Source: Verrucomicrobiota bacterium
GTDB taxonomy: Bacteria; Verrucomicrobiota; Verrucomicrobiia; Limisphaerales; VHDF01
Direction of reading: 5' to 3'
Assembly (NCBI GenBank): GCA_016871495.1
Contig: VHDF01000002.1
Location: forward strand, 1 to 64,000
DNA length: 64,000 bases
Shown in pieces: positions 47,245 through 64,000 of the stretch. The position numbers were made by a program, and so were the translations under genes. How positions within the stretch are numbered: position 1 is the stretch's first letter; each line of letters begins with the position of its first letter. The notes beneath the pieces were generated by a model. The model made no database searches. It was given only the letters and a program-made list of their open reading frames with translations, and was not told the DNA's origin.

Positions 47245-47930
47245 GACGCCGCGGAGAGAATCCAGCAGAAGTTTACCGCATTGAAAAGGCTATGGGCAAG
47301 AATGGGCGCGAGCAGGTTTTGAGTACGCTCGTAGAGCGAGGACAAAATCAGCGCGAAAGCGGTGAGGGACAGGAAGGTCGGCAAATTCGCGTGGATGGCG
47401 GCGAAGACCACCGCGGTGCCCCAGAACGCCAGGCGTGGAAAGCCCAGGGCTTTCAGGACCGGATAGAGGATGCCTCGGAAAAGCAACTCCTCGGCGGCGG
47501 GGGCGAGCACGATGGCGGAGAAGCCAAACACCACGCGTTCGAATAGGCCTCGTGTCTGTTGGAGTGTCCTGACGGCTTGCTGAGTTTCCAGATTCAGATC
47601 GGATCTTGTCATCACCAGGCTGGACAGCTCGCCGAGCGCGAGGGAGACGGGCAGCGCAAGGGCGGTTGCGGCGGCGGCGAACAAGGCCACCTTCCGCGCC
47701 GACCCGTGCTCGAAGCCGAAGGCTTGGTTCCAGGTCATGCCCTGGGCGCGGACGAATCTCCAGGCCAGCCAAAGGACCCATCCGTGAAAAGTGGCGGCAC
47801 CGATCAAATGATTGAGAAACTGCAGATCCGGGGAGGGCGTGGTCATGCCCGGGCCGATGAGTTTGGGCAGGCCCGCGATGAGGACGGCTCCGAGGAACAT
47901 GCCGGCAAAGAGCCAGAGCAGGAGATTCAT
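47241..47930 (-). CDS. CPBP-family intramembrane glutamic endopeptidase
   Basis: 229 aa from the ATG at 47930, which opens the first membrane segment (NLLLWLFAGMFLGAVLIAGL); an ATG at ~47966 is an alternative. Polytopic, with the three CPBP motifs: EELLFRG (E147, E148, R152), a FAAIHANLPTF segment with His, and PILAHSLFNAVNF with His/Asn. The family includes Rce1-like CAAX proteases and bacteriocin-immunity proteases. First gene of the thiL-tsaE-tsaB run; ATGA overlap with thiL. Confidence 0.9.
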   Translation of the reverse strand: MNLLLWLFAGMFLGAVLIAGLPKLIGPGMTTPSPDLQFLNHLIGAATFHGWVLWLAWRFVRAQGMTWNQAFGFEHGSARKVALFAAAATALALPVSLALGELSSLVMTRSDLNLETQQAVRTLQQTRGLFERVVFGFSAIVLAPAAEELLFRGILYPVLKALGFPRLAFWGTAVVFAAIHANLPTFLSLTAFALILSSLYERTQNLLAPILAHSLFNAVNFCWILSAAS

Positions 47931-48057
47931 GACCGGCTCGAGTTTCCAGTGCTTCGCGTGGTGCATGGGTGGGCCGCTTGATCCTACTGAGCTGCGACGG
48001 GTGATGCCAAGTCGTTGAGCCAAGCCCCAGGCTGAGAGCGCCCGAGGCTCCGGTGGT

Positions 48058-48900
48058 TCAGGAGGTCGCCGCGGCTTCAGCGACGCGTTCCAGGATGACG
48101 TCTGGCAAGTGAGGTTCGCATCCGATGCTGAGAGAGTACCACACCCGCTTGCCGTTCCGTTCGGTGGGATTCCGCCAGGTAGGCAAGCCTTGAGAGCAGC
48201 GCTCGCGCACGACCCGTTCCGATTCCCCGAGCATCATGGGGATGTCCTCGTGGGAGTGGAGTCCGTCGCTGATGAAGAACGGCACGACGACGATGTTGCG
48301 GGAGGCGGCCAGCGTGTAACACGCTTCGATGCGCGGATCCTCCTCCATGAAAATCGCGTGAACTTCGGCAAAAAGGCCCCGGCTTTGGATCAATTCTACC
48401 TGACGTTCGATGGCTTTGCGGCTGTTCTCGTTGTTGCCGGTGCCATGGCCCGCGATGAACAGCGCGGTCTCGGAGAGCCTCGGAGCGGTTGGAAACGGAT
48501 GGGCGGCAAGGATCGCACGGGCGCGTTCGATGAGGACCTCCGTCATGCTGGGATGGGTGCCGACGGGCCCGCAGTAGTAGAGCGTTTGGCCGGGTTGGCG
48601 CAGGATTCGGCTTCGGCCGGGACCGACGCCAAACCCGAGTTCGCGCGGAATGATCTCTTCAGTGAAATAACCTTCGCTAATGAACAAGGGGACGATGAAG
48701 ACCCGGGGGCTGTCGACCCCGCGCAAGACCGCGCAGATTTGGGGTTCAAGCTTCCAAAAACCTTCGATCACCTGGCGAAAGAGCCCTCGCCTGCGCAGCG
48801 CGTCCGCGTGCAGGTGGGTGGGTGCGCTGGACTCGGCGTTGAGGGTTGAGCCGTGGCCGATCAACACCAGCGCGGCATCGGAGTAGTTGCCATCAGGCAT
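48058..48900 (-). CDS. cbiX: CbiX/sirohydrochlorin chelatase-like protein
   Basis: 280 aa built of two related halves, as in two-domain CbiX/SirB proteins. Half 1 begins ALVLIGHGSTLNAES with the metal-site His and contains VFIVPLFISEGYFTEEIIPRELG. Half 2 begins ALFIAGHGTGNNENSRKAI and contains VVVPFFISDGLHSHEDIPMMLG with its His. Family members insert Co or Fe into sirohydrochlorin for cobalamin or siroheme. No other tetrapyrrole gene is nearby, so the true metal and pathway are open. Confidence 0.88.
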   Translation of the reverse strand: MPDGNYSDAALVLIGHGSTLNAESSAPTHLHADALRRRGLFRQVIEGFWKLEPQICAVLRGVDSPRVFIVPLFISEGYFTEEIIPRELGFGVGPGRSRILRQPGQTLYYCGPVGTHPSMTEVLIERARAILAAHPFPTAPRLSETALFIAGHGTGNNENSRKAIERQVELIQSRGLFAEVHAIFMEEDPRIEACYTLAASRNIVVVPFFISDGLHSHEDIPMMLGESERVVRERCSQGLPTWRNPTERNGKRVWYSLSIGCEPHLPDVILERVAEAAATS

Positions 48901-49006
48901 GCGTCATGGATAACCGTGACGGGCCGAAGCCGCAAGCCGGGTTCGGAAAATCGGCCGGAAAAATGCGTGACCCCGGGGCTTCGGAGGCCTAAGTTGCGCC
49001 GCGCAA

Positions 49007-50998
49007 ATGGACGCCAGGCGGATCGATGATCTTCTCGAAAAGGCCATTCTGGGCCTGCTTTTGCTGGCCCTTTTTTGGGGGGTCTTGGGGTTTGGCGCGG
49101 TGCGGGCGAGCGAATTTGCCGGTCTTGAATGGCTCGCGTCGCTTTTGGGGGTGCTTTGGCTTGTGCGGCTGTGGTTACGTCCCGAGGAGCGTCTGTTCTG
49201 GCCTCCCCTGCTTTGGATGATTTTGTTATTTACGGCCTACGCTGGGGTGAGGTGGGCGGGTTCGCCCATCGAGTACGTCGCTCGTGACGAATGCCGCCGC
49301 GTGTTGCTGTATGCGATGTTTTTCATCGTCGCGGTCAACAATGCCAATTCCCAGGAATCCGCCTCGTGGGTCGTGGGAAGTTTGCTCGTTTTGGGGGCCA
49401 TGGTATCCACCTATGCGCTGTACCAATTCCTCACGGAGTCCAATCGGGTCTGGCATTTGGAACGGCCCGACGTCTATGCGCGGCGGGGATCGGGCACCTA
49501 CATTTGCCCGAATCACCTGGCGGGTTTTCTCGAAATGCTTTTCCCGGTGGGGCTGGCCTACACCTTGATCGGGCGGCTGGGGCACAAGACACGCATTCTG
49601 GCGGGCTATGCCACGTTGATGATTCTGCTTGGGCTTGCGGTTTCGATTTCGCGCGGCGGGTGGATTGCCTCGGGTCTTTCGGTTTTCCTCTTTCTGGCGC
49701 TGCTGTCCCGGCAGCCCTCGCATCGCCTTCCGGCCATCTTGGCGGTGGTGTTGTTGCTCGCGGGAACGGGTTACGCGGCCACCCGTTCCGAAGCCATCAC
49801 CAAGCGGTTCGAGAAGATGCTCAAACCCGGGCAACTCGAATATGCTTTGCAACGGGTGCATTTGTGGAAGCCCGCGTGGAAGATCTGGCGTGATCACCCC
49901 TGGCTCGGCGCGGGTCCCGGGCATTTCGATCCGGTTTTCCGGCAGTATCGTCCGCCGGATTACCAAGTGCGTCCGGTTCGTGCTCACAATGATTATCTGA
50001 ACACGTTGGCGGACTGGGGGGTGGCTGGGGCTGCGATCGTGGGGGCCGCTTGGGTTCTGTTGTTTGCCGGCGTCGCGAAGACCTGGAAGTTTGTTCAACG
50101 CTCGACCGACTTGGGCAGCAAGACAAGCAATCGCTTCGCTTTGGTGTTAGGGGCCACCTGCGGCCTGATGGCGCTGTTGTTTCACTCGTTTGTCGATTTC
50201 AATTTTCATATTCCCGCCAACGCGTTGACCGCGGTGGTGCTGATGGCTTTGTTGAGCGCTCACTTGCGATACGCGACGGACTCCTATTGGGTGCCAGGGC
50301 GGTGGTGGATTCGTATCGCCGTTTCCGTCATGCTGGTCGCGGGCAGCCTCACTCTGGCGGCGGCGGCTTGGCGGGCCGGACGTGAGGCCCGCGTGCTGGC
50401 GGAAGTGGAGCGGCAAGGACTCCTGATGGAATCGATCCGGCGGGATTCGGAAGCCGCCGGCCGGTACGATCCCCAGGATGTGGAGTTGATGCGGAACCTG
50501 GGTCGTGATTGGGTCAAGGCGCAGGCGGCGCATCTGGCTCGTTTGGAGGAAGCCGTCCGGGCCGAGCCCATGAATGGCGATACTTGGTATCAGCTGGGCG
50601 AGGCGGTGAGACTTTCCGTTTGGCAACGCAATACACCGGATGTGCCGGAGGGGCTGAAGAAAGCCATGGGCGCCTTTTCTCAAGCCGCGTTGATGAACCC
50701 GCTCGATCCTTATCCTCCCCTGCGCCAGGGCATGTGCCTCGATCATTTGCGGCGGCACGCGGAAGCGCGGCCTTACTATGAACGGGCGCTGCGCCTCGAT
50801 CCCCATGGTTATTACACGGTGGCGCATCTGGGGTGGCATTTCGTGCAGTTGCGCGAGTGGGCGATGGCGCGCGAGTGGTTTGAAAAATCACTCCAACTCA
50901 AGCCGGCGACGATGCCGGACGCGAATCCGATCGCTTACGCGTATCTCAGGATCGTGAATCGCATGCTTGCGGAATCCACCAACGCGGCTCCTCGCTGA
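49007..50998 (+). CDS. O-antigen ligase (WaaL-like) with TPR domain
   Basis: 663 aa. The N-terminal ~430 residues hold about ten to twelve membrane segments with the Wzy/WaaL ligase loop: R-R-G-S-G-T-Y-I-C-P-N-H-L-A-G-F-L near ~165, and GAGPGHFDPVFRQYRPPDYQ near ~300, then RAHNDYLNTLADWG with the conserved His. The C-terminal ~200 residues are TPR-like helices (WYQLGEAVRLS, DPYPPLRQGMCLDHLRRHAEA, YYTVAHLGWHFVQLREWAMA). It would join or polymerise polysaccharide at the outer face of the inner membrane. No glycosyltransferase cluster lies beside it. Confidence 0.9.
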   Translation: MDARRIDDLLEKAILGLLLLALFWGVLGFGAVRASEFAGLEWLASLLGVLWLVRLWLRPEERLFWPPLLWMILLFTAYAGVRWAGSPIEYVARDECRRVLLYAMFFIVAVNNANSQESASWVVGSLLVLGAMVSTYALYQFLTESNRVWHLERPDVYARRGSGTYICPNHLAGFLEMLFPVGLAYTLIGRLGHKTRILAGYATLMILLGLAVSISRGGWIASGLSVFLFLALLSRQPSHRLPAILAVVLLLAGTGYAATRSEAITKRFEKMLKPGQLEYALQRVHLWKPAWKIWRDHPWLGAGPGHFDPVFRQYRPPDYQVRPVRAHNDYLNTLADWGVAGAAIVGAAWVLLFAGVAKTWKFVQRSTDLGSKTSNRFALVLGATCGLMALLFHSFVDFNFHIPANALTAVVLMALLSAHLRYATDSYWVPGRWWIRIAVSVMLVAGSLTLAAAAWRAGREARVLAEVERQGLLMESIRRDSEAAGRYDPQDVELMRNLGRDWVKAQAAHLARLEEAVRAEPMNGDTWYQLGEAVRLSVWQRNTPDVPEGLKKAMGAFSQAALMNPLDPYPPLRQGMCLDHLRRHAEARPYYERALRLDPHGYYTVAHLGWHFVQLREWAMAREWFEKSLQLKPATMPDANPIAYAYLRIVNRMLAESTNAAPR

Positions 50999-51077
50999 AA
51001 CCGTCTCTGAGGCTCTCAAGGCGCCAGGACCCGGAGCGTTGGAATCCCAATCCCCCTCCAAGACCGGTGAGGGGCTC

Positions 51078-51108
51078 AAAAAAAAACCGCCGGTCGTTGG
51101 ACCGGCGG
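51078..51108 (-). terminator. Rho-independent terminator after the RRM gene
   Basis: Minus-strand reading: 9-bp perfect stem CCGCCGGTC / GACCGGCGG (arms 51087-51095 and 51100-51108, 4-nt loop) followed by nine T (A-run 51078-51086). Confidence 0.95.
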
Positions 51109-51137
51109 CTTGAGAAAACGGACTGTGTGCGGGGTGC

Positions 51138-51464
51138 TTAGTGGCGAGCGCCACGGTATCCGCCGCCGCCACCGCCACCACCGCCACCACCGGACCGGGG
51201 AGGACGTTCCTCGCGCGGACGGGCGATGTTGACCGTCAGGGGACGGCCTTGGAGGTCCTTGCCGTGGAACATTTCAACCGCCTTCTCTGCTTCATCCTTC
51301 GATCCGAATTCGACGAAAGCGAATCCACGGGATTTGCCGGTGAACTTGTCCAGCATCAAGTTGACCGAAGTCACGACGCCCGCTTGGGAGAAGTGGTCTT
51401 GCAAGTCGTTTTCCATCGTCTGGTAAGAGAGATTACCAACGAACAGACGTGTATCATTCTGCAT
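51138..51464 (-). CDS. RRM-domain RNA-binding protein, glycine-rich
   Basis: 108 aa from the ATG at 51464 (MQNDTRLFVGNLSYQT); the longer frame has no homology. One RNA recognition motif with RNP2 LFVGNL (7-12) and RNP1 KSRGFAFV (44-51), then a tail RSGGGGGGGGGGGYRGARH-like in composition (11 Gly in a row). This is the bacterial/cyanobacterial Rbp-type RRM protein, thought to bind single-stranded RNA and often cold-induced. Strong terminator directly downstream; single-gene transcript, divergent from pyrD. Confidence 0.93.
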   Translation of the reverse strand: MQNDTRLFVGNLSYQTMENDLQDHFSQAGVVTSVNLMLDKFTGKSRGFAFVEFGSKDEAEKAVEMFHGKDLQGRPLTVNIARPREERPPRSGGGGGGGGGGGYRGARH

Positions 51465-51687
51465 AGGGATTACCGCAAAGGAAACTCCGTGGGGAAACGC
51501 TGCACAGGCAGGATCCATGAACACCACTCCAGGCAGCCTGGAGGCGACACTGTCTTCTGACACCAACACCGCAATTTCATCTGCTGAGCTCCACGCTAGC
51601 AAAGCCTGGTTCCGCGTCAATCGGGATATTTGGGGGATTTTTCCACGCTCGACACCGGCGCCGGCGCGGAACGAATCTCGCCGCGAA

Positions 51688-52815
51688 ATGAGCTGGCTCT
51701 ACCGGCAGGCGATTCGCCCTTTCCTTTTCCGCTGCGATTCGGAGCGGATCCATCGCCGGGTCTTGGACTTCCTCGGGCGGATTTCCCGATCCCGCGCCGG
51801 GTTGAACTTGACGCGGCACCTCTACGGCGCGGAACGGATTTCCCCGGTGCGGTGCTTTGGATTGGAGTTCCCGAATCCCGTCGGATTGGCGGCGGGCATG
51901 GACAAGTTCGCCGAGGCGGTCCCGGTGTGGGAGGCGTTAGGTTTTGGGTTCGCCGAGTTAGGCGGCGTCACCTGGTTGGAGCAGCCGGGGAATCCGGCGC
52001 CCCGCATGTTTCGCGTGCCCTGCGACCGCGCTTTGATCAATCGCATGGGCTTCAACAATCCCGGTGCAGAGGCTCTGGCACGCTCGCTGCGGGGATGGCG
52101 AGAGCGGGGATTCTGGCCGGCGCATCCGGTGGGCATCAACCTGGGCAAATCCAAGGCGACCCCGCTGGAGCAAGCGGCGGAGGATTACGAGAAATCGTTT
52201 CGATGTTTGCGGGCATGGGCCGATTTCTTTGTCGTCAATGTCAGCTCTCCCAACACCCCGAATCTCCGGCAACTGCAGGACAAGCAGGCCTTGGACGAAA
52301 TCCTCGACCGGCTGCAGCGGGTCAATCGCGAGCCTTTGAGCGGGAGTCCGCCTGCGCCGCGCCCCATTTTGGTGAAAGTCGCGCCCGATCTGAGTTTCGA
52401 GGCGTTGGACGAGATTCTGGCTTTGGCGGAGCCGCGCGGATTGGCGGGAATTGTGGCGACGAACACGACGATTGCCAGGCCGGAGGGGGTGAAGGATGAG
52501 GATCCGAGCCGGAGGAGCTACCGCGAACAGGGCGGGATGAGTGGAGCTCCATTGCGGCGGCGCAGCACGGAGGTCATTCGCCATCTTTTCAAGCAATCCC
52601 GGGGAAAGGTGCCCCTCATCGGCGTGGGGGGGATCTTCGACGAGGACGACGCTTGGGAGAAAGTGACGGCGGGGGCGACTCTCGTGCAGTGTTATACCGG
52701 CTTGGTTTACGAAGGTCCGGGATTGGCGGCCCGTCTGGTGCGAGGATTGAGGCGGTGCATGGAGCGGGAAGGGGTGCGCGACTGGAGTGAAGCCGTGGGT
52801 TCCGCCTGCCGTTGA
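51688..52815 (+). CDS. pyrD: Dihydroorotate dehydrogenase (quinone-type, class 2)
   Basis: 375 aa from the ATG at 51688, chosen because the class-2 N-terminal helix (SWLYRQAIRPFLFRCDSERIH) starts here; upstream codons in the open frame have no homology. Typical motifs are NPVGLAAGMDKFAEAV, GFGFAELGGVTW, NRMGFNNPGAEALA, VNVSSPNTPNLRQLQ (catalytic Ser region), KVAPDLSFE, GIVATNTT, GGMSGAPLRRRS and IGVGGIFDEDDA. It oxidises dihydroorotate to orotate at the inner membrane using quinone. Stand-alone; converges with the kinase gene. Confidence 0.96.
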   Translation: MSWLYRQAIRPFLFRCDSERIHRRVLDFLGRISRSRAGLNLTRHLYGAERISPVRCFGLEFPNPVGLAAGMDKFAEAVPVWEALGFGFAELGGVTWLEQPGNPAPRMFRVPCDRALINRMGFNNPGAEALARSLRGWRERGFWPAHPVGINLGKSKATPLEQAAEDYEKSFRCLRAWADFFVVNVSSPNTPNLRQLQDKQALDEILDRLQRVNREPLSGSPPAPRPILVKVAPDLSFEALDEILALAEPRGLAGIVATNTTIARPEGVKDEDPSRRSYREQGGMSGAPLRRRSTEVIRHLFKQSRGKVPLIGVGGIFDEDDAWEKVTAGATLVQCYTGLVYEGPGLAARLVRGLRRCMEREGVRDWSEAVGSACR

Positions 52816-52824
52816 AAAGGGTTC

Positions 52825-53826
52825 CTATCTTTTCCACCATCCCCGCGCTCCGCCCGGCTGGCTCTGGCGGAGTTGGCTGACGAGCAACTGGCTGCGGGAC
52901 GCGGTCAGGGCCATCATGAAGTCGTCGTAGGTTTGGTAGCGGTCGGACGGACTCTTCGCCATGGCGACGGTGATGGCTTCGCTCGTGGGCGCGGTGATAC
53001 CGGGCACGACGAGGTGAGGGGGGGTCAGCGGTGTGTGAACCTGGGCGGAGACAACCTCCTCGATGGATTGGGCTTCGAACGGGACGTGGCCGGTGAGCGC
53101 GTGGTATAGGGTGCCTGCCAGGCTGTAGAGGTCGGAGAGAAAGGTCTCGCCCTGGCGCATGACTTTTTCCGGGGCGATGTAATAAGGAGTCCCCCACACT
53201 GCATTGTCCTCCTCGCTTTCCTCGCCCGCGTTGCGGGCGAGTCCGAAATCCACCAACTTGGGTTCGCCGTCGGCATTGAACAGAATGTTTCCTGGTTTGA
53301 TGTCGCGGTGGAGCAGTCCGTGTTTGAGCGCGGTGGCCAGGGCGGAGGCGACCTTGATGCCGACATCAAGGACATCCAGTTCGGGCAGGTTCTTTTCCTT
53401 TTCAATGCGGCCATCGAGGCTGCCGCGATCGGCGAGCTCCATGACGAGGAAGCGCTGACCCTCGTGCTCTTCGAAGGTGTAGATGTGGATGATGTTCGTG
53501 TGGTTGAGGGCGGCGCAGGCACGGGCCTCGCGATAGAAGCTTTCCAAGGCGGCGGGATCCTCGGCGATATCGCGGCGCATGAGTTTGACGGCAACTTCCC
53601 GGTGGAGGGCCCGGTCGTAGGCTCGATACACGGTGCCCATGCCTCCCGAAGCGATCGGCTGGCGCAGTTCGAACTGGCGCATGGTCACCGGCATCATGAC
53701 CGGGTGGCTGCATTTCGGGCAGGCGGTCGTGGCGAAAGCGGGAAGGTCTGTGGCGATAAACACTTTCCCGCCGCAACCACCGCAGCTCACCATTTTGAGC
53801 GGTTTTCGATCTTCTGTGGCAGACAT
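52825..53826 (-). CDS. Ser/Thr protein kinase with N-terminal zinc-ribbon-like motif
   Basis: 333 aa Hanks-type kinase. Residues 15-39 contain CGGC ... CPKC, a likely zinc ribbon. The kinase domain (52-~310) has the glycine loop ASGGMGTVY (59-67), Lys81 in VAVKLM, HRDIKPGN (173-180), DFG (193-195), the activation segment GTPYYIAPE and DLYSLAGTLYHALTG. All catalytic residues are present. No membrane segment follows the kinase, so it is a short cytoplasmic form without a sensor domain. No phosphatase or FHA partner is adjacent. Confidence 0.95.
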   Translation of the reverse strand: MSATEDRKPLKMVSCGGCGGKVFIATDLPAFATTACPKCSHPVMMPVTMRQFELRQPIASGGMGTVYRAYDRALHREVAVKLMRRDIAEDPAALESFYREARACAALNHTNIIHIYTFEEHEGQRFLVMELADRGSLDGRIEKEKNLPELDVLDVGIKVASALATALKHGLLHRDIKPGNILFNADGEPKLVDFGLARNAGEESEEDNAVWGTPYYIAPEKVMRQGETFLSDLYSLAGTLYHALTGHVPFEAQSIEEVVSAQVHTPLTPPHLVVPGITAPTSEAITVAMAKSPSDRYQTYDDFMMALTASRSQLLVSQLRQSQPGGARGWWKR

Positions 53827-54073
53827 GGGGCGGCATTCATAAAGGGGTTTTCCGCCTGCGACAAGGGGCTTTCCTCAACGCCTGAAGCGAAGCTGGAGTT
53901 TTGCCCTGTGAATCGAGCTTGTCCCCGGGTCCCGAGCAGCGCCGGGGAGGCAGGATTCGGTCGATGAACTCCTTCATTTTGTTACTCAACTGACACGCCG
54001 GGCCGGTCTTGTTTCACCTTTGTTACGTTCGCGTCATGAATCCGTCAACAGGGACTCCTAACGTCGCTCCCTC

Positions 54074-54352
54074 GTGAAAATCGCGGCTGTTGGTTTATTC
54101 ATCATGATGGTGGCGGGGAGCGCCCAGGGTGCGGCCCCCGATTCGCCCCTGGCGCTTTCGCGCGAGGCGATCGCCCAATGGACACAAACCCGGCAGTTGA
54201 TTTCGCAGACCCGGGCGGCCTGGGAGAGCGACCGGGAAACCCTGAAACAAACACAGTCCCTTTACGAAAGGGAACTCCAGGCCGTTCGTGATCAACTGGG
54301 AAAGGTTTCAACCAACAATTCCGTGGCCGATAAAGAGCGCGCCCGAGATTGA
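54074..54352 (+). pseudogene. N-terminal fragment of a DUF3450-like secreted protein
   Basis: 92 aa from a GTG at 54074 with a signal peptide (KIAAVGLFIMMVAGSAQGA). Residues 28-90 (EAIAQWTQTRQLISQTRAAW, then DRETLKQTQSLYERELQAV) match the beginning of DUF3450-type coiled-coil periplasmic proteins, which are normally ~250 aa and accompany ExbB/ExbD-type motors. The frame ends abruptly in KERARD-stop near 54350. It is followed in another frame by an unrelated C-terminal module. Read as a 5' gene fragment left by a deletion; a short peptide could still be made. Confidence 0.6.
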
Positions 54353-54554
54353 TTTGTCGATTGCGGGCGGCACGGTGCAAATCCGGTTCGCATCGAAGTC
54401 GGGGGTTCGTTACACATTGCAAACAGCGGTCAGCCTGGGTGCGCCCACCGCCTGGACGGATGCCGGTGCCCCCGTATCGGGCACCGGCGCTGAACTGATG
54501 CTTTCCGAACCTATTGGTGGTTCGAGCAAGTTCTACCGTGTGTCAGCGCAATGA
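54288..54554 (+). pseudogene. C-terminal 'FYRV' module fragment, fused out of frame
   Basis: From about 54340 the frame reads APEIDLSIAGGTVQIRF, SGVRYTLQTAVSL, TAWTDAGAPVSGTGAEL and KFYRVSAQ. This is the same kind of ~65-aa C-terminal module as in the proteins at 471 and 33532. The first part of the open frame (54288-54335) is only the out-of-frame shadow of the DUF3450 fragment, so no genuine start is visible. It appears to be the 3' end of another secreted-protein gene joined to the DUF3450 5' end. Confidence 0.55.
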
Positions 54555-54620
54555 CCTGCGGTAAGGGGTAAATGAATTGGGTGGCCGGATCCACCCAATC
54601 CTGGACAACTGAAAAACAAG

Positions 54621-54664
54621 CGGGCTCGGGACTATGCCGTGTGGGTCCTGAGCCCGTATTTTTT
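54621..54664 (+). terminator. Rho-independent terminator
   Basis: Stem CGGGCTCGGGAC (54621-54632) / GTCCTGAGCCCG (54645-54656), 11 of 12 paired, followed by TATTTTTT. It terminates the plus-strand fragments that end at 54554. Confidence 0.9.
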
Positions 54665-54696
54665 GCGCACGACCCTTTCGAGCAAGATCCTGCTGA

Positions 54697-55491
54697 TCAA
54701 GTCTTGGAGGGAGTGGAATGGCGGCGTGCTGCCATCAGCTTTCGATTGAATTCGACCAACTCGGTGTAGCGCACCCCGGTACCGCCGAACAGATCGAGGG
54801 CCGATCCGATCGTGAGATCAACCCGGCCCTGACCTGCCGACTCGACCGCCTGGAAATCCTCCAAGCTGGAAGCGCCGCCTGCGTAGGTCGAAGGGATGGG
54901 GGAGTGTTCGCCCAGGAGACGGACCAGGTTCAGGTCCACCCCGCGACACAGACCTTCCACATCCACGGCGTGGATCAGGAATTCGCCGCAGTGGTGAGAA
55001 AGTTCGCGGAGCACTACTGCTGAAACCGAAAGCGATGTAAATTTCTGCCAGCGATCGGTGACGACCCAATAATGGTTGTTCCGAATCCGGCAGCTGAGGT
55101 CAAGAACCAGCCGGTTCTTTCCGACCGTTTGGACCATTTCAGAAAGGCGGTTCTGGTCGAGGGCACCCTCACGAAAAACGTACGAAGTGACAATGATGTG
55201 GGATGCTCCAGCGTCGAGAAAGGGTTTGGCATTGCCCGGGTGAATGCCGCCTCCAAGTTGAAGTCCGCCCGGGAAGGCGCGGAGGGCGGCGAGGGCGGCT
55301 GGTTCGTTTCCCGGTCCGAGCATGATGACATGGCCGCCCTGGAGTTGGTCTTGCCGGTAAAGCTCGGCGAAGTATTCGGGCGGGTGGGTCGAGACGAAGT
55401 TCGTTTTGAGCCCGGCTTCATGATCCGACAGCGTGCCGCCGACGATTTGTTTCACTTTGCCTTGGTGCAGGTCGATGCAGGGTCGGAACAT
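54697..55491 (-). CDS. hisA: Phosphoribosylformimino-AICAR ribotide isomerase, eukaryotic-type HisA
   Basis: 264-aa TIM barrel. It starts FRPCIDLHQGKVKQIVGGTL (catalytic Asp7) and has GGHVIMLGPGNEPAAL, GGLQLGGGIHPGNAKPFLDAG, HIIVTSYVFREG, RLVLDLSCRIRNNHYWVVTD, EFLIHAVDVEGLCRGVD, PSTYAGGASSLEDF and RVDLTIGSALDLFGG. This pattern is that of the fungal/plant HIS6/HISN3 isomerase rather than usual bacterial HisA. It converts ProFAR to PRFAR in histidine synthesis. The partner hisH lies about 8 kb away at the right edge, so the his genes are scattered. Confidence 0.93.
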   Translation of the reverse strand: MFRPCIDLHQGKVKQIVGGTLSDHEAGLKTNFVSTHPPEYFAELYRQDQLQGGHVIMLGPGNEPAALAALRAFPGGLQLGGGIHPGNAKPFLDAGASHIIVTSYVFREGALDQNRLSEMVQTVGKNRLVLDLSCRIRNNHYWVVTDRWQKFTSLSVSAVVLRELSHHCGEFLIHAVDVEGLCRGVDLNLVRLLGEHSPIPSTYAGGASSLEDFQAVESAGQGRVDLTIGSALDLFGGTGVRYTELVEFNRKLMAARRHSTPSKT

Positions 55492-55551
55492 GGATGGAGC
55501 CCGCCGTCGCGGTCCCGGGCATTAGGGGGCGGGAGGGGGGAGGGTTAAAGC

Positions 55552-55586
55552 AAAAAAACAAGAGGAGCCCGGTGTCGCCGGGCTCC
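55552..55586 (-). terminator. Rho-independent terminator after wspR
   Basis: Minus-strand reading: perfect 9-bp stem GGAGCCCGG / CCGGGCTCC (55564-55572, 55578-55586, 5-nt loop), a short spacer, then seven T (A-run at 55552-55558). Confidence 0.85.
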
Positions 55587-55696
55587 CCCTTCGGTAAGCG
55601 GGCCTGATCCTGGGACCGCTGTTTCAGACCGAACAGACGAGATTAGAGCATGGACCTTGCCAGCATCGAATTTGCGAAACGGCAGAGTTTGGGGAG

Positions 55697-56743
55697 CTAA
55701 ATGTCCTTGAAAGCGTTGGGATCCTCCGCCCGTTGAGAAATGACCACACGATTGCGTCCGTTCCGTTTGGCTTGATAGAGCGCCTCATCAGCATCGCGGA
55801 TAAGGTCGCTGGCCTCGGTGCAGTCCGCCGGGATGCAGGAGGAGGCTCCGACGCTGATGGTGACGTGGTCGCTGAAGGGGGATTTCAGGTGATCGAGCTT
55901 GAGCTGATCGATTGCGGCTCTCATGCGTTCCGCAATGGTCGCGACACCCGAGGCACCGGCGTCGGGCAGGATGACGGCGAACTCTTCGCCCCCGAAGCGA
56001 GCGACGAGGTCCGAGGCTCGAAAGATCGAACGATTGAGCTCGGAGGCGATGCGCCGAAGGCATTCATCTCCGGCGGTATGTCCGTAGTGGTCGTTGAACA
56101 TCTTGAACGCGTCGATGTCGATGAGCGCCAATCCCAGGGGGGGTCCGGCGCGGGAGGCTCGTCTCCACTCGGCGGTGTAGCGTTCCTCGAACGCGCGGCG
56201 GTTGGCGATACCGGTCAGCGCGTCGATGCTGGAGAGCCGCTGCAGAGCCGCGTTGGCATCCTTGAGCTCGCGTTGGGATTGATGCAACGCTCGAAGCGTC
56301 GCGAAATTGGAGGCATGGAGCCGAATGCGGGCTGTGAGTTCGATGGCATCGGGCAGTTTGACGAGGTAATCGCTGGCCCCTCTCAGGAAAGCGTCGCGCT
56401 TGATCGCCGAATCCTCTTTCGACGAAAGCACAATAATGGGGATCTCCCTCGTTTCGGCATGCGAATGATATTCGCGAACCAGGGTCATTCCGTCCAAGTC
56501 AGGCATCACCAAGTCCTGGAGAATGACGGAAGGCTTGAACTGTTTGGCTTCCTCGATGGCCTGTCGGGGATCGAGGCAGTAGTGGAGCTGGATGTCTTTC
56601 TCCTGGGAGAGCATCCTTTGGATGACCTCGACCACCATGCGCTGGTCATCGACGAGCAGGACCCGTGTTGCTCGCGCTATTTCCGGAACGGGTTCAGCGT
56701 TTGTTTCCGGCGGAGGGGAAGAGGGCAAAGGGCCTGCGGGCAT
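55697..56743 (-). CDS. wspR: Response regulator with GGDEF diguanylate cyclase (WspR-like)
   Basis: 348 aa, the same size as Pseudomonas WspR. The receiver domain has VLLVDDQRMVVEVIQRML, phospho-site SVILQDLVMPDLDGMTL, IPIIVLSSKEDSAIKRDAF and GASDYLVKLPDAIELTARIR, all closely like WspR. A linker helix is followed by the GGDEF domain with active-site GGEEF (in LVARFGGEEFAVILPD), an intact RxxD inhibitory site (RASD, five residues before GGEEF), and NGRNRVV at the end. It makes cyclic di-GMP when phosphorylated. Divergent from the WspA-like receptor genes. Confidence 0.93.
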   Translation of the reverse strand: MPAGPLPSSPPPETNAEPVPEIARATRVLLVDDQRMVVEVIQRMLSQEKDIQLHYCLDPRQAIEEAKQFKPSVILQDLVMPDLDGMTLVREYHSHAETREIPIIVLSSKEDSAIKRDAFLRGASDYLVKLPDAIELTARIRLHASNFATLRALHQSQRELKDANAALQRLSSIDALTGIANRRAFEERYTAEWRRASRAGPPLGLALIDIDAFKMFNDHYGHTAGDECLRRIASELNRSIFRASDLVARFGGEEFAVILPDAGASGVATIAERMRAAIDQLKLDHLKSPFSDHVTISVGASSCIPADCTEASDLIRDADEALYQAKRNGRNRVVISQRAEDPNAFKDI

Positions 56744-56979
56744 GCCCTTTCATCGGCAGGGCCAGGAAGGACTTGAGAAAGTTCACAAGGGCGTGATTCC
56801 CGGTTCAAACCGTTCGTTATTCCCGCGTCGCATCGCCCGCCGGGAAAGGTTAAGCCGGGCGGTAGAACCGCCGATAGCAGGATCAAGGCTTTGATTGAGG
56901 ATCGGGTTTGCGATCCCAGGCCCTGACGAGCGGCACGAGTCGGGGCGGCTGGGAAAGCGAGACCGATGGCTCGACTCCT

Positions 56980-58155
56980 ATGAACCATCCAAGTTTTAGC
57001 AAGCGCCTGATGGTGTTTCAGGCTGGATCCTGTCTGGCGAGTGCTCTTGTTGGCGCTTGGGCTGGCTCCCCCGAGCAGCGGGGCGAGTGGTCTTGGTGGT
57101 TGTCCATCTTTTCGACCCTCGCGGGTTTGTCGGTCCTGGGAGGGTGGCTGCTGTGGCGGGGTTTTGAGCAGGAATTAGCCTCGATGGAGCGTTCCCTCCG
57201 CAAAGTCGTTTCCGGGGAGTTTGGCGTGCGGGGTCCCCGGAGGGGCTGGAGGGAGTTGATGAGGTTGCGCTCCGCCCTGGACTCTTTGTTTGGCAACGTG
57301 GAGGTTTTGGCCGAGCGAGCCCGAAGTTCTGGGGCGCATTTGAAGCGCATGCTGGATGCCTTGGGCTCCGCGTCGCGACAGCAGGAATCCGCTTCCGGTG
57401 AGTTGCTGGCCGCGACGCAACGCATCGGGTCCAGCGCCCGACAAATCAGCGAAACGGCGGATGGTTTGATCCGCACCGTGGCCGACGTGGACAAGTTGGC
57501 GAACTTGGCCGCCGAGTCCGCCGACCGCGGCAAGTCGGGGGTGCAGCGCATGGAGCAAAGCATTCATCAGATTGCCGGGGCTTCCTCGTCGATCGCCTCG
57601 AAGCTTGCGGTTTTGAACGAGCGCGCGGCGAACATCAGCTCGGTGGTCACGACCATCAACAAGGTGGCGGATCAGACCAACTTGCTTTCCTTCAACGCGG
57701 CCATCGAAGCGGAAAAGGCCGGCGAGTTCGGCCTGGGCTTTGCGGTGGTGGCGACCGAAATCCGCCGGCTCGCCGATCAGACCGCGATCGCGACGCGCGA
57801 CATCGAGAAGATGATTCGCGAGATCCAGACCGCCGTGTCGGCGGGGGTCATGGGCATGGACAAATTCGGCGAGGAGGTGCGGCGGGGAGTGGAGGAGATC
57901 AGCCAGGTGAATCTGCAACTCACGCAAATCATTCATCAGGTGAAGGGATTGGTGCCCCGGTTCTCCGAAGTGACGGGAGGCGTGCAGGCGCAAATGTCGG
58001 GGGCGCATGAGATCAGCGAAACGCTCATCCTTTTCAACACTCACGCGCGGCAAACCAGCCGCGCCATGGAGCACGCGGGTGACGCGGTTCAGCTCTTGAG
58101 CCGGGCCGCCTCAGATCTAAAAACCGGGGTTGAGCGGTTCCGTCCGGCCGCTTGA
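56980..58155 (+). CDS. WspA-like methyl-accepting chemotaxis receptor, no periplasmic domain
   Basis: 391 aa from the ATG at 56980 (NHPSFSKRLMVFQAG). Two membrane segments (~10-30, ~38-58) are joined by a very short loop, so there is no periplasmic sensor domain. The cytoplasmic signalling hairpin has the tip [20 protein letters not shown], then [28 protein letters not shown] replaces the common E-A-A-R-A-G-E, as in WspA receptors. Further on, GVMGMDKFGEEVRRGVEEI is also WspA-like. It should control a CheA-type kinase that phosphorylates WspR; such a kinase is not in the window. Confidence 0.9.
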   Translation: MNHPSFSKRLMVFQAGSCLASALVGAWAGSPEQRGEWSWWLSIFSTLAGLSVLGGWLLWRGFEQELASMERSLRKVVSGEFGVRGPRRGWRELMRLRSALDSLFGNVEVLAERARSSGAHLKRMLDALGSASRQQESASGELLAATQRIGSSARQISETADGLIRTVADVDKLANLAAESADRGKSGVQRMEQSIHQIAGASSSIASKLAVLNERAANISSVVTTINKVADQTNLLSFNAAIEAEKAGEFGLGFAVVATEIRRLADQTAIATRDIEKMIREIQTAVSAGVMGMDKFGEEVRRGVEEISQVNLQLTQIIHQVKGLVPRFSEVTGGVQAQMSGAHEISETLILFNTHARQTSRAMEHAGDAVQLLSRAASDLKTGVERFRPAA

Positions 58156-58173
58156 ACCGTACAGTTTGCGAGC

Positions 58174-59460
58174 ATGAAACGATTGAACATCACTCTCCGG
58201 ATTTACCTCGGATTCCTCCTTTTCATCGTGCTGATCGCGGCAGCCGGCTGGATGGGGACCCATTTCCTGGATCGTATTGTCCACGAGGCACGCCGTTTCT
58301 CTGAAGCGCAAGCCCCGCTCAACGAGTTGTTTGCCGAAATGGATCGCATCGGAGGCGAGCTCGATGCGCGGTCCGCAGCCGCCTCCGACAGGGCGCCCTC
58401 GACTCAGGCGTGGCGGGTTCGCCTCGCTCAAGCCCGGGCGGTCGCCGTCACGCGGGAAGCCGAGATTTCCCGAGCGATCGCCGATTCGACCTCCAACCTG
58501 AGAGCGGTGCTCCGCGCGGCTTTTGTGGCGGGGGTGGTGATTTCCGTCCTTGCGGCTGGAATGATTTCCCGTTCGATCCGGCTCCCCCTGAGACAACTGG
58601 TGGACGGCATGGAACGTCTTCGTCAGGGCGACTTTACTCAGCGGCTCAAATTGGCGGCCGAAGGGGAATTTGAAGAGGTGGGGGAAGGAGTGAATGAGAC
58701 CGTGGTTGAACTGTCCAGGTTGGTCGGCGCCGTGCAGGTGTCCGGCGGGCAGGTGGCAAACTCCTCGAACGAGATTGCCTCGGCCTCCCGGCAGCAGCAG
58801 ACGACCGCGAGCCAGATCGCGAGGACTACCATGGAGATCGGGGCGACTTCGAACGAAATCACCGCCACGGCCTAGGAACTCGTGATGACGATTCGGAGTT
58901 TGAGCGACGTCGCGGTCCAAACCGCGGAGTTGGCCAATTCCGGGCAAGCCGGATTGATGAGGATGCAAAGCACCATTCAGCAACTCATGGAGTCGTCCTG
59001 GGGGATCGCCTCAAAGTTGCGGGTCCTCAATGAAAAAGCGGCCAACATCAATTCGGTCGTCACCACGATTGGCAAGGTGGCGGACCAGACCAATTTACTT
59101 TCGTTGAACGCGGCCATCGAAGCCGAGAAGGCGGGTGAAGCCGGACTCGGCTTTGCGGTGGTGGCGGGTGAGATTCGGCGTCTGGCCGACCAGACCGCGG
59201 TGGCGACTCAGGACATCGAGGAAATGGTCAAGGAGATCCAGGCTGCCGTGAACAACGGAGTGGAGGGCATGGAAAAATTCGGCGAATCGGTCAGGCAGGG
59301 CGTGAGCGACGTGAGCCAGGTGGGCGCGCAACTTGGTCAGATCATTGACCAAGTGCAGGCCCTTTCACCGCGGTTTGACGCCGTCAATCAGGGAGTCGAA
59401 GCCCAGGCCACCGGGGCGTAGCAAATCAGCGAGGCGCTGGCGCAGTTGAGTTCCTCGGCC
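58174..59460 (+). pseudogene. Second WspA-like receptor, interrupted by two in-frame TAG codons
   Basis: One continuous homologous frame: TM1 (~9-27), a short periplasmic domain, TM2 (~112-130), HAMP (SIRLPLRQLVDGMERLRQGD) and the signalling domain. It contains TAG at 58873-58875 (between EITATA and ELVMTIRSL) and again at 59419-59421 (between QATGA and QISEALAQL). On both sides the frame is unchanged and the homology to the receptor at 56980 continues ([21 protein letters not shown]). The 5' part alone would be 233 aa and the middle piece (58882-59421) 179 aa. The C-terminus switches to unrelated sequence near 59460. Tandem duplicate of the preceding gene, apparently inactivated. Confidence 0.85.
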
Positions 59461-59470
59461 CGCGCTCCCG

Positions 59471-60052
59471 GTGTTGGTCTTGAGCGCCGGATCCAACGGG
59501 TCCTGGTTGCCAGTCCTCTCTGCTTTGAGGGCTTGCGCCAGACTCTCCAAGCCCGTCCGCCGGGTGCAGTGCCTGGCCGCCTTGGCGAAATGGCTGCAAG
59601 GAGGTGACCGCAGCACCACCGCGCCCGAGCGCCGATCCGTCGTGGATCCAGGCATGGCGGGCCGATTGCCGCTGAGGATCTTGATCGCGGACGACAACCC
59701 GGTGAATCAAAAGGTGGGCCGTTCGATGCTGAACCGCATGGGATACGCCCCGGATCTCGCCGATCATGGGGGTGCCGTCTTGGATCTGCTGAAGACGCGG
59801 GTTTACGATTTGATCTTGCTCGATGTCCAGATGCCAGTCCTGGACGGCTATGAAGTCTGCCGACACATTCGCCAGAGTGCGGGGGAGGGAGTCAAGCCGG
59901 TCCTCATCGCGCTCACCGGCAATGCGATGGTGGGGGATCGCGAAAAGTGCCTGGCTGCGGGCATGGACGACTATTTGAGCAAACCCGTTCGGATCGAGGC
60001 TTTGGCCGGACTGCTGGAGAAATGGGGGTCTCAACGAAATCTGGCGCGTTGA
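59471..60052 (+). CDS. Receiver-domain protein, C-terminal fragment of a hybrid sensor kinase
   Basis: 193 aa from a GTG at 59471. The first ~55 residues look like the end of one degenerate receiver domain (VLVLSAGSNGSW ... ARLSKPVRRVQCLAALAKWL). Residues ~68-185 form a complete receiver domain: LRILIADDNPVNQKVGRSML, DLILLDVQMPVLDGYEVC (phospho-Asp), VLIALTGNAMVGDREKCLAAG and DYLSKPVRIEAL. No kinase or ATP-binding part precedes it; the upstream sequence is the receptor pseudogene instead. Probably the tail of a double-receiver hybrid histidine kinase. The intact receiver could still act as a stand-alone phosphate acceptor. Confidence 0.65.
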   Translation: MLVLSAGSNGSWLPVLSALRACARLSKPVRRVQCLAALAKWLQGGDRSTTAPERRSVVDPGMAGRLPLRILIADDNPVNQKVGRSMLNRMGYAPDLADHGGAVLDLLKTRVYDLILLDVQMPVLDGYEVCRHIRQSAGEGVKPVLIALTGNAMVGDREKCLAAGMDDYLSKPVRIEALAGLLEKWGSQRNLAR

Positions 60053-60128
60053 AACGCTGCGAAAATCGCGTTGATGCCCTGGCTTTTCGCGACTACGTTG
60101 CGGAGCTGTGCTTGATGATCGATCCTAT

Positions 60129-61016
60129 ATGAGGGACCCCATGGCGGGCTCGGGCCGCTGGCGTTCGGGCACCATGATCGTCATTCTCGCCAATGTGGCG
60201 GTGTTTTTTCTCTTGGAAATTCACCGCGTGGCAGCCACGCGCTTGACGATCGAAGGCTATCTGCAAGGGCATTTTCTGGCCCTCAGCTGGTCGAGCCTGA
60301 TGCAAGGGCAGATCTGGCAGTTGGCCACGTTTCAGTTCTTGCACGGCGGCATCATCCACCTGCTCTTCAATGGCTTGACGATCTATTTTTTTGGCAAGCC
60401 CCTGGAGGAATCTCTCGGACGCAGGGGCTTCTACAAACTTTACTTCTTGTCCGGAACGGCCGGGGGAGTACTGCAGGTCATCCTGGCCGCCTTGTTCCCT
60501 CACTGGGTTCCGGACGCGTCGGTCGTGGGCGCTTCCGCCGGTGCGTTCGGGCTCGTGGCCGCGTTTGCCATGATGAATCCGGAGCGGGTCCTGACCTTTC
60601 TCCTTTTTTTGTGCATCCCGGTCAGCATGAAGGCTTGGGTGCTGCTCTTGATCAGCGGCGCCTTGGCGCTCTACGGATTGCTTTTCTCGAAGGACAACAT
60701 CGCTCACGCCGCGCATTTGGGCGGCATGCTTTGCGGCATGGGGTTCGTTTTTGCGATGGCCAAGGGCTGGTCTCTTTCAAGCTGGCTGCCCAAGCCTGCT
60801 CCCTCCTCGCGTCCGCGCGAGTTGGTGACCGCTTCCACCGCGAGAAAAAAGGCTTGGAGCAAAGCCGGGCCGGAACCCGAGGCCACCCCCGAGGAGTTTA
60901 TCAGCCGGGAAGTGGACCCGATCTTGGACAAGATCTCCGCGCACGGGATCCACAGCCTGACCGAGCGCGAACGTCGCATTCTCGAAGCGGCCCGGCATCG
61001 CATGACCAAGCGATGA
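60129..61016 (+). CDS. Rhomboid-family intramembrane serine protease
   Basis: 295 aa from the ATG at 60129; a GTG at 60108 and an ATG at 60141 are alternatives. Six to seven membrane segments. LHGGIIHLLFNGLTIY (His72, His77, Asn81) is the rhomboid oxyanion region. VVGASAGAFGL carries catalytic Ser136, and NIAHAAHLGGMLCG carries catalytic His196. The C-terminal ~80 residues are cytoplasmic and end with an E-R-R-I-L-E-A-A-R helix (as in the family members I know with a DUF6576-like tail). Cleaves substrates within the membrane; targets unknown. Upstream of purB by 58 bp. Confidence 0.9.
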   Translation: MRDPMAGSGRWRSGTMIVILANVAVFFLLEIHRVAATRLTIEGYLQGHFLALSWSSLMQGQIWQLATFQFLHGGIIHLLFNGLTIYFFGKPLEESLGRRGFYKLYFLSGTAGGVLQVILAALFPHWVPDASVVGASAGAFGLVAAFAMMNPERVLTFLLFLCIPVSMKAWVLLLISGALALYGLLFSKDNIAHAAHLGGMLCGMGFVFAMAKGWSLSSWLPKPAPSSRPRELVTASTARKKAWSKAGPEPEATPEEFISREVDPILDKISAHGIHSLTERERRILEAARHRMTKR

Positions 61017-61074
61017 CCATGCTTCGCCGCCGACTCCGCTTCGCCTTCCGTCCGACCCTGGCGCGCCTTTTCCC

Positions 61075-62391
61075 ATGATCCCACGCTATTCTCGTCCCGC
61101 CATGCGGGAGATCTGGACCGAACACCATAAACTGCAGATCTGGCTCCGCATCGAGTTGCTCGCGGCGGAAGCGCTCACGCGGGAGGGCGTGGTGCCCCGG
61201 CGTGACTATGCCATCCTTCGGCGCAAGGCGGCGTTCGACCTTGATCGCGCCAAGGAACTGGAGAAGACCCTCAATCATGACGTGATCGCCTTCACCACGA
61301 GTGTGGCTGAAAAGATCGACGATCCCGCCAGTCGCTGGCTGCATTTTGGACTGACCAGCAGCGATGTGGTGGACACCGCCTTCGCCGTCCAATTGACACA
61401 ATCCGCGGATCTCTTGCTAGCCGGGGTCGCGGAACTGTTGAGCGTGATTGCGACCAAAGCCCGGGAGCACAAGCGGACTCCGTGCATTGGGCGCAGCCAC
61501 GGGATTCACGCCGAACCCACGACGTTCGGACTCAAACTGGCGCTGATGCATGATGAGTTCGTTCGGGCGGAGCGCCGGTTGCGCCAGGCCAGGGAGACGA
61601 TTGCGGTGGGGAAACTGTCCGGAGCGGTGGGCACCAGCGCCCATCTTTCTCCTGGCGTGGAGGCGTTCGTGTGCCGCCGGCTGGGGTTGAGACCCGCGCC
61701 CATTGCCACCCAGGTCGTGCAGCGGGATCTCCACGCCGAATTCATGCAAACGCTGGCCCTGGTCGCCGCCAGCATCGAGCGCTGGGCCACCGAATTCCGG
61801 CATCTCCAGCGCACCGAGGTGCTGGAAGCCGAGGAGTTTTTTTCGAAGGGCCAGAAGGGCAGCAGTGCCATGCCCCACAAGCGAAACCCGATCACGGGCG
61901 AGCGCTTGACCGGATTGGCGCGCGTCTTGCGCGGCCACGCGGTCGCGGCGCTTGAAAATGTCGCCCTCTGGCACGAGCGCGACATCAGCCACAGCTCGGT
62001 CGAGCGCGTGATTTTTCCGGACAGTTGCACCTTGCTGGATTACATGCTCGCCACGCTCGCCGGATTGACCGGCGGCCTGATCGTTTACCCCGAGAACATG
62101 AGGCGGAATCTCGGCTTATCGCTCGGGATGTGGAATTCGCAAACCGTTCTGCTGGCGCTCATCCGCAAGGGACTTTCCCGGGAAGAGGCCTACGAGCGAG
62201 TGCAACGCAATGCCATGGCCACCTGGGCTGCCAAGCATGCTGGACGCGAGGACGCTGATTTCCTCCAACAACTGCGAAGCGATCCCGAGGTGTCCCGCTT
62301 CTTCAAGAAGGGCGAATTGGAACAACTCTGCTCGCTCGATTTCCACCTGGCACAAGTGGACCGCCGCTTCAAGAAGCTCGGCCTGGGTTGA
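61075..62391 (+). CDS. purB: Adenylosuccinate lyase
   Basis: 438 aa, full length. Fumarase-superfamily signature SSAMPHKRNP (263-272) on the mobile catalytic loop with its Ser, GRSHGIHAEPTTFG (~139-152, catalytic His), and HFGLTSSDVVDTA (~90-102). Catalyses two steps: SAICAR to AICAR, and adenylosuccinate to AMP. The C-terminal ADSL-type domain (YPENMRRNLGLSLG) is intact. The ATG at 61075 gives the usual short N-terminus before YSRPAMREIW. Converges with exbD. Confidence 0.97.
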   Translation: MIPRYSRPAMREIWTEHHKLQIWLRIELLAAEALTREGVVPRRDYAILRRKAAFDLDRAKELEKTLNHDVIAFTTSVAEKIDDPASRWLHFGLTSSDVVDTAFAVQLTQSADLLLAGVAELLSVIATKAREHKRTPCIGRSHGIHAEPTTFGLKLALMHDEFVRAERRLRQARETIAVGKLSGAVGTSAHLSPGVEAFVCRRLGLRPAPIATQVVQRDLHAEFMQTLALVAASIERWATEFRHLQRTEVLEAEEFFSKGQKGSSAMPHKRNPITGERLTGLARVLRGHAVAALENVALWHERDISHSSVERVIFPDSCTLLDYMLATLAGLTGGLIVYPENMRRNLGLSLGMWNSQTVLLALIRKGLSREEAYERVQRNAMATWAAKHAGREDADFLQQLRSDPEVSRFFKKGELEQLCSLDFHLAQVDRRFKKLGLG

Positions 62392-62459
62392 GGCCTCTCC
62401 GCAGGGGCGGCACCGGCCGCGCCGGGTCGGTCTCCGTGATTCCGCGAGAGCCGCGGCGT

Positions 62460-62873
62460 TTATTTGCCTTCGTTCTTGGTCAGAGCGCTGACGTTCTTGA
62501 TGCGCGCCGATTTCGCCGCGTCCATGACTTTGACAATGACACCGAACGGAGCGTCATGGTCGGCTCGAATCGCCAGTTGCACCTCGGGATTGCCGGCCGA
62601 AGCGGCCTTCAGTTCCCCCGCGAGCCTTTCATAGGTCACGGGACGCTCCCCCACATAGAGATGCGGCTCCCGGGGGGCGATCGTGACCACGAGCGAGGCT
62701 TCGGATCCGCCCGCTTTGCCTTGCTTGGATTCCGGCAAGGCAAGCTTCAAAGCCGGCTGTTGCTTGAAGGTCGTGGTGGCCATCAGGAAAATGAGCAACA
62801 CCATCAGGATGTCAATGAGCGACACGATAATGATGGCCGGTGTTTGCCGCCGTTTGCGCGTGATGAACCTCAT
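62460..62873 (-). CDS. exbD: Biopolymer transport protein ExbD/TolR
   Basis: 137 aa with one N-terminal membrane segment (IIIVSLIDILMVLLIFLMATTT) carrying the conserved Asp that translocates protons (S-L-I-D), and a periplasmic domain ending VMDAAKSARIKNVSAL. Forms the motor with ExbB that energises TonB- or Tol-type systems. The start overlaps exbB by ATGA-type 4 bp (62870-62873). Confidence 0.95.
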   Translation of the reverse strand: MRFITRKRRQTPAIIIVSLIDILMVLLIFLMATTTFKQQPALKLALPESKQGKAGGSEASLVVTIAPREPHLYVGERPVTYERLAGELKAASAGNPEVQLAIRADHDAPFGVIVKVMDAAKSARIKNVSALTKNEGK

Positions 62874-63514: not shown

Positions 63515-63616
63515 GATAGGAAAGTCTGCTTGCTCTTATCCAGATCCTCTCGCTCCGGCAACCGCCAAAACGGATGATCGCGGTTCGGGCCGAATCCGTT
63601 CGAAGGTGAACAGGGC

Positions 63617-64000
63617 TCAAGCACTTTGGCAGAAGTCGAGAAAGTTTTTCAGCACTCTCAGCCCCATCGACTGGCTTTTTTCGGGATGAAATTGTGTGGC
63701 AAAGACGTGGCCGCTCCAAACGGATGACGCGAAGAAAACCCCGTGGTCGGTGCGGCTCGCCACAATCGACGCCTCCTCAGGTTCAGGAAAATAACTGTGG
63801 ACGAAGTAGAAATAGGCGTGGTCAGGAATGCCCAAAAACAAGGGGTTGTTCGGGAGGGATAGATGCACTTGATTCCATCCGATTTGGGGAATCTTGAGGC
63901 CGGGGGTCGCGGGGAAACGCCGGACCCGCCCCTTGAAGATACCGAGTCCCGCGGCGCAGGAATGGAATTCTTCGCTGCGTTCGAACAACGCCTGGTAGCC
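63617..64000 (-). CDS. hisH: Imidazole glycerol phosphate synthase, glutaminase subunit (C-terminal part)
   Basis: Partial gene entering from the right edge; about 127 codons are visible, beginning G-Y-Q-A-L-F-E-R-S-E-E, which follows the catalytic Cys segment outside the window. Visible HisH features are GLGIFKGRVRRFP, KIPQIGWNQVHL, FYFVHSYFPEP and the catalytic His/Glu in VFATQFHPEKSQ, then GLRVLKNFLDFC. The subunit releases ammonia from glutamine for HisF. It lies 102 bp upstream of exbB on the same strand. Confidence 0.95.
   Translation of the reverse strand, partial: GYQALFERSEEFHSCAAGLGIFKGRVRRFPATPGLKIPQIGWNQVHLSLPNNPLFLGIPDHAYFYFVHSYFPEPEEASIVASRTDHGVFFASSVWSGHVFATQFHPEKSQSMGLRVLKNFLDFCQSA

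Follow-up and report, generated by a model that had tools for sequence, protein, structure and literature searches.

A hisA gene of the HIS6/HISN3 type

How does a bacterial genome come to encode a HisA protein resembling those of yeast and plants, and was the gene acquired from a eukaryote? The question is raised by a gene within a 64,000-nucleotide stretch of a Verrucomicrobiota genome (referred to here as the window), in which a first-pass annotation described a "eukaryotic-type HisA" in a histidine pathway of mosaic origin. We find that the gene is a typical representative of a HisA class widespread in bacteria and not a recent eukaryotic import. It very probably encodes the only detected 5'-ProFAR isomerase of this cell, from a class that substitutes for classical HisA.

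The open reading frame reported by the annotation is present and intact (Table 1). No strand had been named for it; it lies on the minus strand, and the plus-strand reading of the same interval is interrupted by a stop. All of the cited motifs occur in the minus-strand translation. The protein matches the NCBIfam model TIGR02129 ("hisA_euk") with 358.8 bits (E = 1.8e-107), well above the curated cut-off of 229.3 that defines the family, and over the full length of the profile (positions 3–255 of 255), whereas it scores 60.7 bits against the bacterial HisA model TIGR00007 (cut-off 228.95) and falls outside that family. The database description of TIGR02129 mentions Fibrobacter. Among proteins of solved structure the best sequence matches are plant HISN3 (9fcf, 281 bits) and yeast His6 (2agk, 228.2 bits), and the residues conserved among yeast, plant, and bacterial members of the family (CIDLH..KVKQIVG, GGHVI, DLSCR, RWQ, DVEG, and GSALD.FGG) are all present. 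The GC content of the gene is 0.594 (0.604 for the window), and its GC3 of 0.682 is slightly under that of five other window genes (0.721–0.775).

Table 1. Features of the hisA region, in window coordinates.
Feature	Coordinates	Strand	Remarks
Ser/Thr protein kinase-like gene	52825..53826	-	Top model match 251.6 bits (under the cut-off of 450); no evident connection with the histidine pathway
hisA, TIGR02129 type (HIS6/HISN3-like ProFAR isomerase)	54697..55491	-	Intact ORF, 264 aa, ATG start
Terminator-like hairpin and T run	55551..55590	-	Lies in the gap separating hisA from the diguanylate cyclase gene upstream
Response regulator with GGDEF (diguanylate cyclase) domain	55697..56743	-	TIGR00254, 176.5 bits (cut-off 37.4); no evident link to histidine synthesis
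hisH, bacterial type, stand-alone	63635..64000, on to contig position 64237 (G000:C2:63635-64237)	-	TIGR01855, 205 bits (cut-off 105.4)

Histidine genes of the window genome

The window gene would encode the cell's sole detected enzyme for step four of histidine synthesis (EC 5.3.1.16), predicted to be a (beta/alpha)8 barrel performing the Amadori rearrangement of ProFAR to PRFAR, which would then pass to an ordinary stand-alone HisH/HisF synthase. A search of the genome with PF00977 returned three places: a stand-alone HisF of 264 aa on contig C96 (TIGR00735, 365.1 bits), the window hisA, and a below-cut-off match on contig C17. The C17 gene has no NCBIfam model match at E ≤ 1e-20 and may be read as ThiG, judging from its sequence alone. 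No other HisA was found by this search, including the second, bacterial hisA that the first-pass annotation had named as a thing to look for; the genome is a draft of 201 contigs that is 97% complete, and an overlooked copy is conceivable. The hisH that the annotation placed nearby is indeed of the ordinary bacterial kind and lies on the same contig.

The hisA gene is not adjacent to other his genes: hisH lies at a distance of about 8 kb, and hisF is on a different contig. This lack of linkage would suit a paralogue that does some job other than that of HisA, as a HisF2/WbuZ-like protein or another kind of barrel enzyme, and barrel proteins of related type may act in other pathways (the HisF-like gene of locus L192 scores under both the HisF and WbuZ cut-offs). 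However, the protein scores only 57.2 bits against WbuZ (cut-off 299.7) and 53.5 bits against HisF2 (cut-off 310) while lying far above the cut-off of hisA_euk, and the HisF and HisH that are present need a HisA, for which no other candidate was found. We consider a paralogue of this sort extremely improbable, and assign the gene as hisA. A dual HisA/TrpF role was also considered and is not needed because a separate TrpF is present elsewhere in the genome.

The hairpin between hisA and the upstream diguanylate cyclase gene has 13 pairs, nine of them G-C, followed by GTTTTTTT, and would set hisA apart as its own transcription unit. Two terminator-like sites were found in the scan, compared with a mean of 1.7 in shuffled sequences, and the hairpin is a consensus match only. 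When window positions 44001–64000 were compared with the 16 kb around hisA in a relative of the same order (G295), the matches were confined to hisA and its antisense reading. Elsewhere in the window, a methyl-accepting chemotaxis-like gene (58174–59421) appears to be split by a stop, giving two in-frame ORFs (58174–58875 and 58882–59421), through either decay or a sequence error. Two tRNA genes are present on the plus strand at 29343–29415 and 29484–29556 (Rfam, 74.8 and 66 bits).

Predicted structure and active site

An AlphaFold2 model of the window HisA, built from 32 aligned members, has a mean pLDDT of 93.6 and a pTM of 0.90. In a structure search, its matches to plant HISN3 (Z of 40.4 and 39.6, rmsd 1.4) and yeast His6 (Z of 33.5, rmsd 1.1) stand well above those to classical HisA and PriA, for which the highest Z is 26.8 (rmsd 2.4). 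The likeness to Medicago truncatula HISN3 (PDB 9fcf and 9fcg) extends over the whole barrel, with 52–53% identity in the structural alignment and the same motifs, but that is a plant enzyme, its structures are of a D57N mutant (with ProFAR in 9fcf), and the trees differ in where they place the plant row among bacteria. Saccharomyces cerevisiae His6 (PDB 2agk) shares the family and fold at 45% identity; it differs in having VAMNKWQ, close to the VAMNRWQ of one same-class genome group, where the window protein has VTDRWQ. Classical HisA (TIGR00007; Salmonella HisA, PriA, and Thermotoga HisA) has the same barrel fold, with Z of about 24–27 and 18–22% identity, and presumably catalyses the same reaction, but forms a separate clade.

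Four residues, D7, D131, H174, and E179, are invariant among the 32 aligned members. In an alignment with ten classical rows, two of them are shared with classical HisA: D7, the first Asp, and D131, which follows the fourth strand. The residue mutated in the plant D57N crystals falls at the D7 position. In contrast, the T-D...DG motif of bacterial HisA aligns with an H-A...EG stretch in the window protein that holds H174 and E179. By analogy with the classical enzymes, D7 and D131 are the likely acid-base residues and E179 would take the place of the Asp of the DG motif, with the role of H174 likewise suggested by that comparison.

Two HisA types within the phylum

Among 387 genomes of the same phylum, the TIGR02129 type is present above cut-off in 160, the window genome included, spanning 19 family codes. 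TIGR00007 is matched above its curated cut-off in 195 and at E < 1e-46 in 205, and with the latter threshold no genome contains both types and 22 contain neither, one of these (G246) having a weak TIGR02129 match (1.0e-25). A search using TIGR00007 only would call HisA missing in the 160 genomes that use the other form.

At least two genera contain both types. In genus g4 classical HisA is encoded by G051, G184, G301, and G286 (the last at 224.4 bits, just below cut-off) and the TIGR02129 type by G021 and others, and in genus g18 the classical type occurs in G085 and G260 and the TIGR02129 type in G140 and G292. Because the two classes exclude each other and yet occur together within single genera, hisA offers a clean case of gene displacement. 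In many lineages this widely spread bacterial class appears to take the place of the classical enzyme, one gene standing in for the other.

Replacement in place was considered by comparing the genes within about 8 kb of hisA between related genomes of differing HisA type. No flanking gene was shared at an E-value of 1e-12 in any of seven cross-type comparisons (G140-G085, G140-G260, and G292-G085 in genus g18; G119-G134 and G119-G158 in family f12; G021-G184 and G021-G051 in genus g4), and since no flanking gene is common to these pairs, the two types are not at one locus there. In the four classical g4 genomes hisA directly precedes a second, HisF-like match, which in the three of four checked scores 266.9–284.1 bits on TIGR00735 (cut-off 294.55) with an incomplete matched stretch; in G021 the TIGR02129-type hisA is far from the HisF-like match.

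Two further arrangements were noted in this sample. Genome G157 contains two nearly identical HIS6-type hisA copies about 1.9 kb apart (L228:1038-1808 and 2975-3742), which may be either a recent duplication or an assembly artefact. Three g4 genomes that are 98–99% complete (G005, G069, and G105) match neither HisA model at E ≤ 0.001, and therefore have no HisF-like gene either; the histidine pathway has possibly been lost within this genus.

Spread of the class among bacteria

A scan of named genomes, using an alignment headed by the plant protein, gave at least 596 pattern matches, at least 592 of which encode a relative. The best 80 of these 592 or more, ranked by similarity to the plant sequence and hence favouring plant-like sequences, include members from Desulfobacterota, Lachnospiraceae, Paenibacillaceae, Endozoicomonadaceae, Latescibacterota, Gemmatimonadota, Armatimonadota, Nitrospinota, and Planctomycetota. 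Four samples from outside the window phylum, each containing a centre genome picked for having the gene, gave TIGR02129-type genes in 20 of 247 genomes of the Desulfobacter latus phylum (19 of 246 without the centre genome), 5 of 299 in the Kineothrix phylum (4 of 298), 3 of 299 in the Endozoicomonas phylum (2 of 298), and 30 of 194 in one order of that last phylum (29 of 193).

TIGR00007 was matched above cut-off in none of six further genomes with the TIGR02129 type, and twelve additional genomes of this type were examined by PF00977 scan only. One metagenome-assembled genome (MAG), G1240, has both types, with a classical HisA (276.5 bits on TIGR00007) adjoining HisF and a TIGR02129-type gene on a contig of only 4.5 kb. 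Another, G1239, has an additional HisF-like gene below both the HisF and WbuZ cut-offs, and in G1238 the PF00977 scan gave no strong HisF match.

The bacterial members from Cohnella, Lachnospiraceae, Desulfobacter, and Endozoicomonas are of the same family as the window HisA, but in Cohnella fermenti the gene sits within a full his operon whereas the window gene stands alone. The Cohnella genes form one run, hisZ-hisG-hisD-hisB-hisH-hisA-hisF-hisIE, in which hisA is of the TIGR02129 type (361 bits), and this is strong genetic evidence for a HisA role of the type in bacteria. In a Paenibacillus MAG and in Cohnella luojiensis, the TIGR02129-type gene is adjacent to another strong His_biosynth match, both lying on one strand. 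Family membership, the single HisA found in the window genome, and the Cohnella operon context together point to ProFAR isomerase activity for the window protein. No assay of a bacterial enzyme of this type was found in the literature passages available. A literature search, with most subscription journals outside its scope, found no paper naming TIGR02129 and, in the available passages of PMC2530860, PMC1963479, PMC7478625, PMC8305728, PMC2481427, PMC9026213, PMC5404923, PMC7311316, and PMC11528492, no description of the spread of the class in bacteria, so that prior publication is possible.

Phylogeny and the origin of the eukaryotic enzymes

When 14 bacterial HisA and 6 HisF rows were included in the tree (L124 and L126 being left out), the 32 TIGR02129-type rows, yeast and plant included, form one side of a branch with 100/99 support. 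The window protein thus lies outside ordinary bacterial HisA, as the first-pass annotation had supposed, yet its nearest rows are not the eukaryotic HIS6 and HISN3 sequences to which the annotation had tied it: in all four trees, each with two eukaryotic rows at most, the nearest rows are bacterial. In two trees, the relatives from the window phylum group with rows from Verrucomicrobia, Kiritimatiellales, and Victivallis, by which the phylum is most likely Verrucomicrobiota broadly defined.

These placements bear on the possibility that a fungal, algal, or plant hisA entered the window lineage or an ancestor of it, with loss of the resident copy. Such a transfer would agree with the name and signature of the family, with the grouping of yeast in three trees with same-class sequences of the window phylum, and with the like view that Fani and co-workers take of another step, the hisHF fusion of two delta-proteobacteria, in the passages available of PMC1963479. 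But eukaryotic nearest relatives, as a recent transfer would leave, were not seen with the two eukaryotic rows included, and the type is spread across many phyla, occurs in 19 family codes of the window phylum, and occupies the hisA position in a complete bacterial operon of Cohnella. Because the type is widespread in bacteria and the nearest rows are bacterial (two eukaryotic sequences being compared), there is no call for a eukaryotic transfer into the window genome, and we regard one as very unlikely. We infer that bacterial genes of the TIGR02129 type are not eukaryotic imports and that the class is of great age. The assignment of the window gene to the HIS6/HISN3 family in preference to ordinary bacterial HisA therefore holds, but the labels "eukaryotic" and "mosaic" are misleading for a type so common in the phylum and found in a complete Cohnella operon, and the former readily prompts mistaken reports of genes passing from eukaryotes to bacteria.

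Yeast His6 and plant HISN3 would instead be branches of this bacterial class. For the first tree, thinning at 72% identity reduced 113 rows to 81; for the second, 34 Bacillota rows were reduced to 8 and 21 rows were added; and for a later one 14 rows were removed and 14 added. In this later tree the type is divided by a branch of 100/99 support into two halves, one of 29 rows with yeast and one of 47 rows with the plant protein. The yeast half is marked by (V/I)A(M/T/S)(N/D)(R/K)WQ and also takes in a Pseudomonadota group along with many genomes of the same class; the plant half, which includes the other bacteria, mostly has VTDRWQ. The window HisA has VTDRWQ and is placed near the join, falling in the yeast half in one tree (28 rows, 94/84) and in the other half in two, such that its exact place is unsettled. 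The plant protein also moves between trees, grouping with Desulfobacter and others (10 rows, 92/97), within a wider group (20 rows, 95/92), or beside Lachnospiraceae (89/12).

A single clade of yeast and plant was rejected for each of three row sets (p-AU 0.0405, 0.00123, and 0.00643), at log-likelihood costs of 42.7, 59.3, and 48.3, respectively; the constrained group was chosen after the first tree had been seen, and the results for all three sets are given. The yeast branch is long (1.05–1.2 in three trees), and in two of these trees the bootstrap had not stabilised. The tree within the type is unrooted and includes two eukaryotic sequences, and the direction of transfer is not readable from it; rooting with HisF and bacterial HisA gave a joining branch of length 10 and a root on yeast (rest 61/77), which we treat as uninformative. 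As a tentative proposal, the "eukaryotic" HisA could be a bacterial class gained separately by fungi and plants from different bacterial lineages, fungal HIS6 from the branch represented today by the VAMNRWQ-bearing class of the window phylum and by a Pseudomonadota order, and plant HISN3 from the VTDRWQ branch. Separate origins are a possibility based on two eukaryotic sequences; if true, the histidine pathway of eukaryotes is not a single inheritance at the HisA step. With yeast and plant placed apart, where the eukaryotic enzyme came from becomes a question that can be tested.

Other unusual histidine proteins

Several bacterial genomes with HIS6-type HisA have other histidine proteins of unusual architecture. 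HisH-HisF fusions resembling eukaryotic HIS7 are encoded in Desulfobacter latus (L194:350-1942, 530 aa) and in a Nitrospirota MAG (L195:860-2560, 566 aa), with both halves above the HisH and HisF cut-offs. Blautia sp. MSJ-19 (L226:1325-2608) and Kineothrix alysoides (L227:34-1329, minus strand) encode HisIE proteins of 427–431 aa, the first ~220 aa of which begin as a degenerate HisF/HisA-like barrel. Pfam His_biosynth matches these at 78.5 and 67.6 bits (residues 6–133 and 8–132, respectively), and a Tyr is present at the catalytic Asp position (PCLYL and PCIYL). In K. alysoides hisD is located about 0.6 kb from the HisIE gene.
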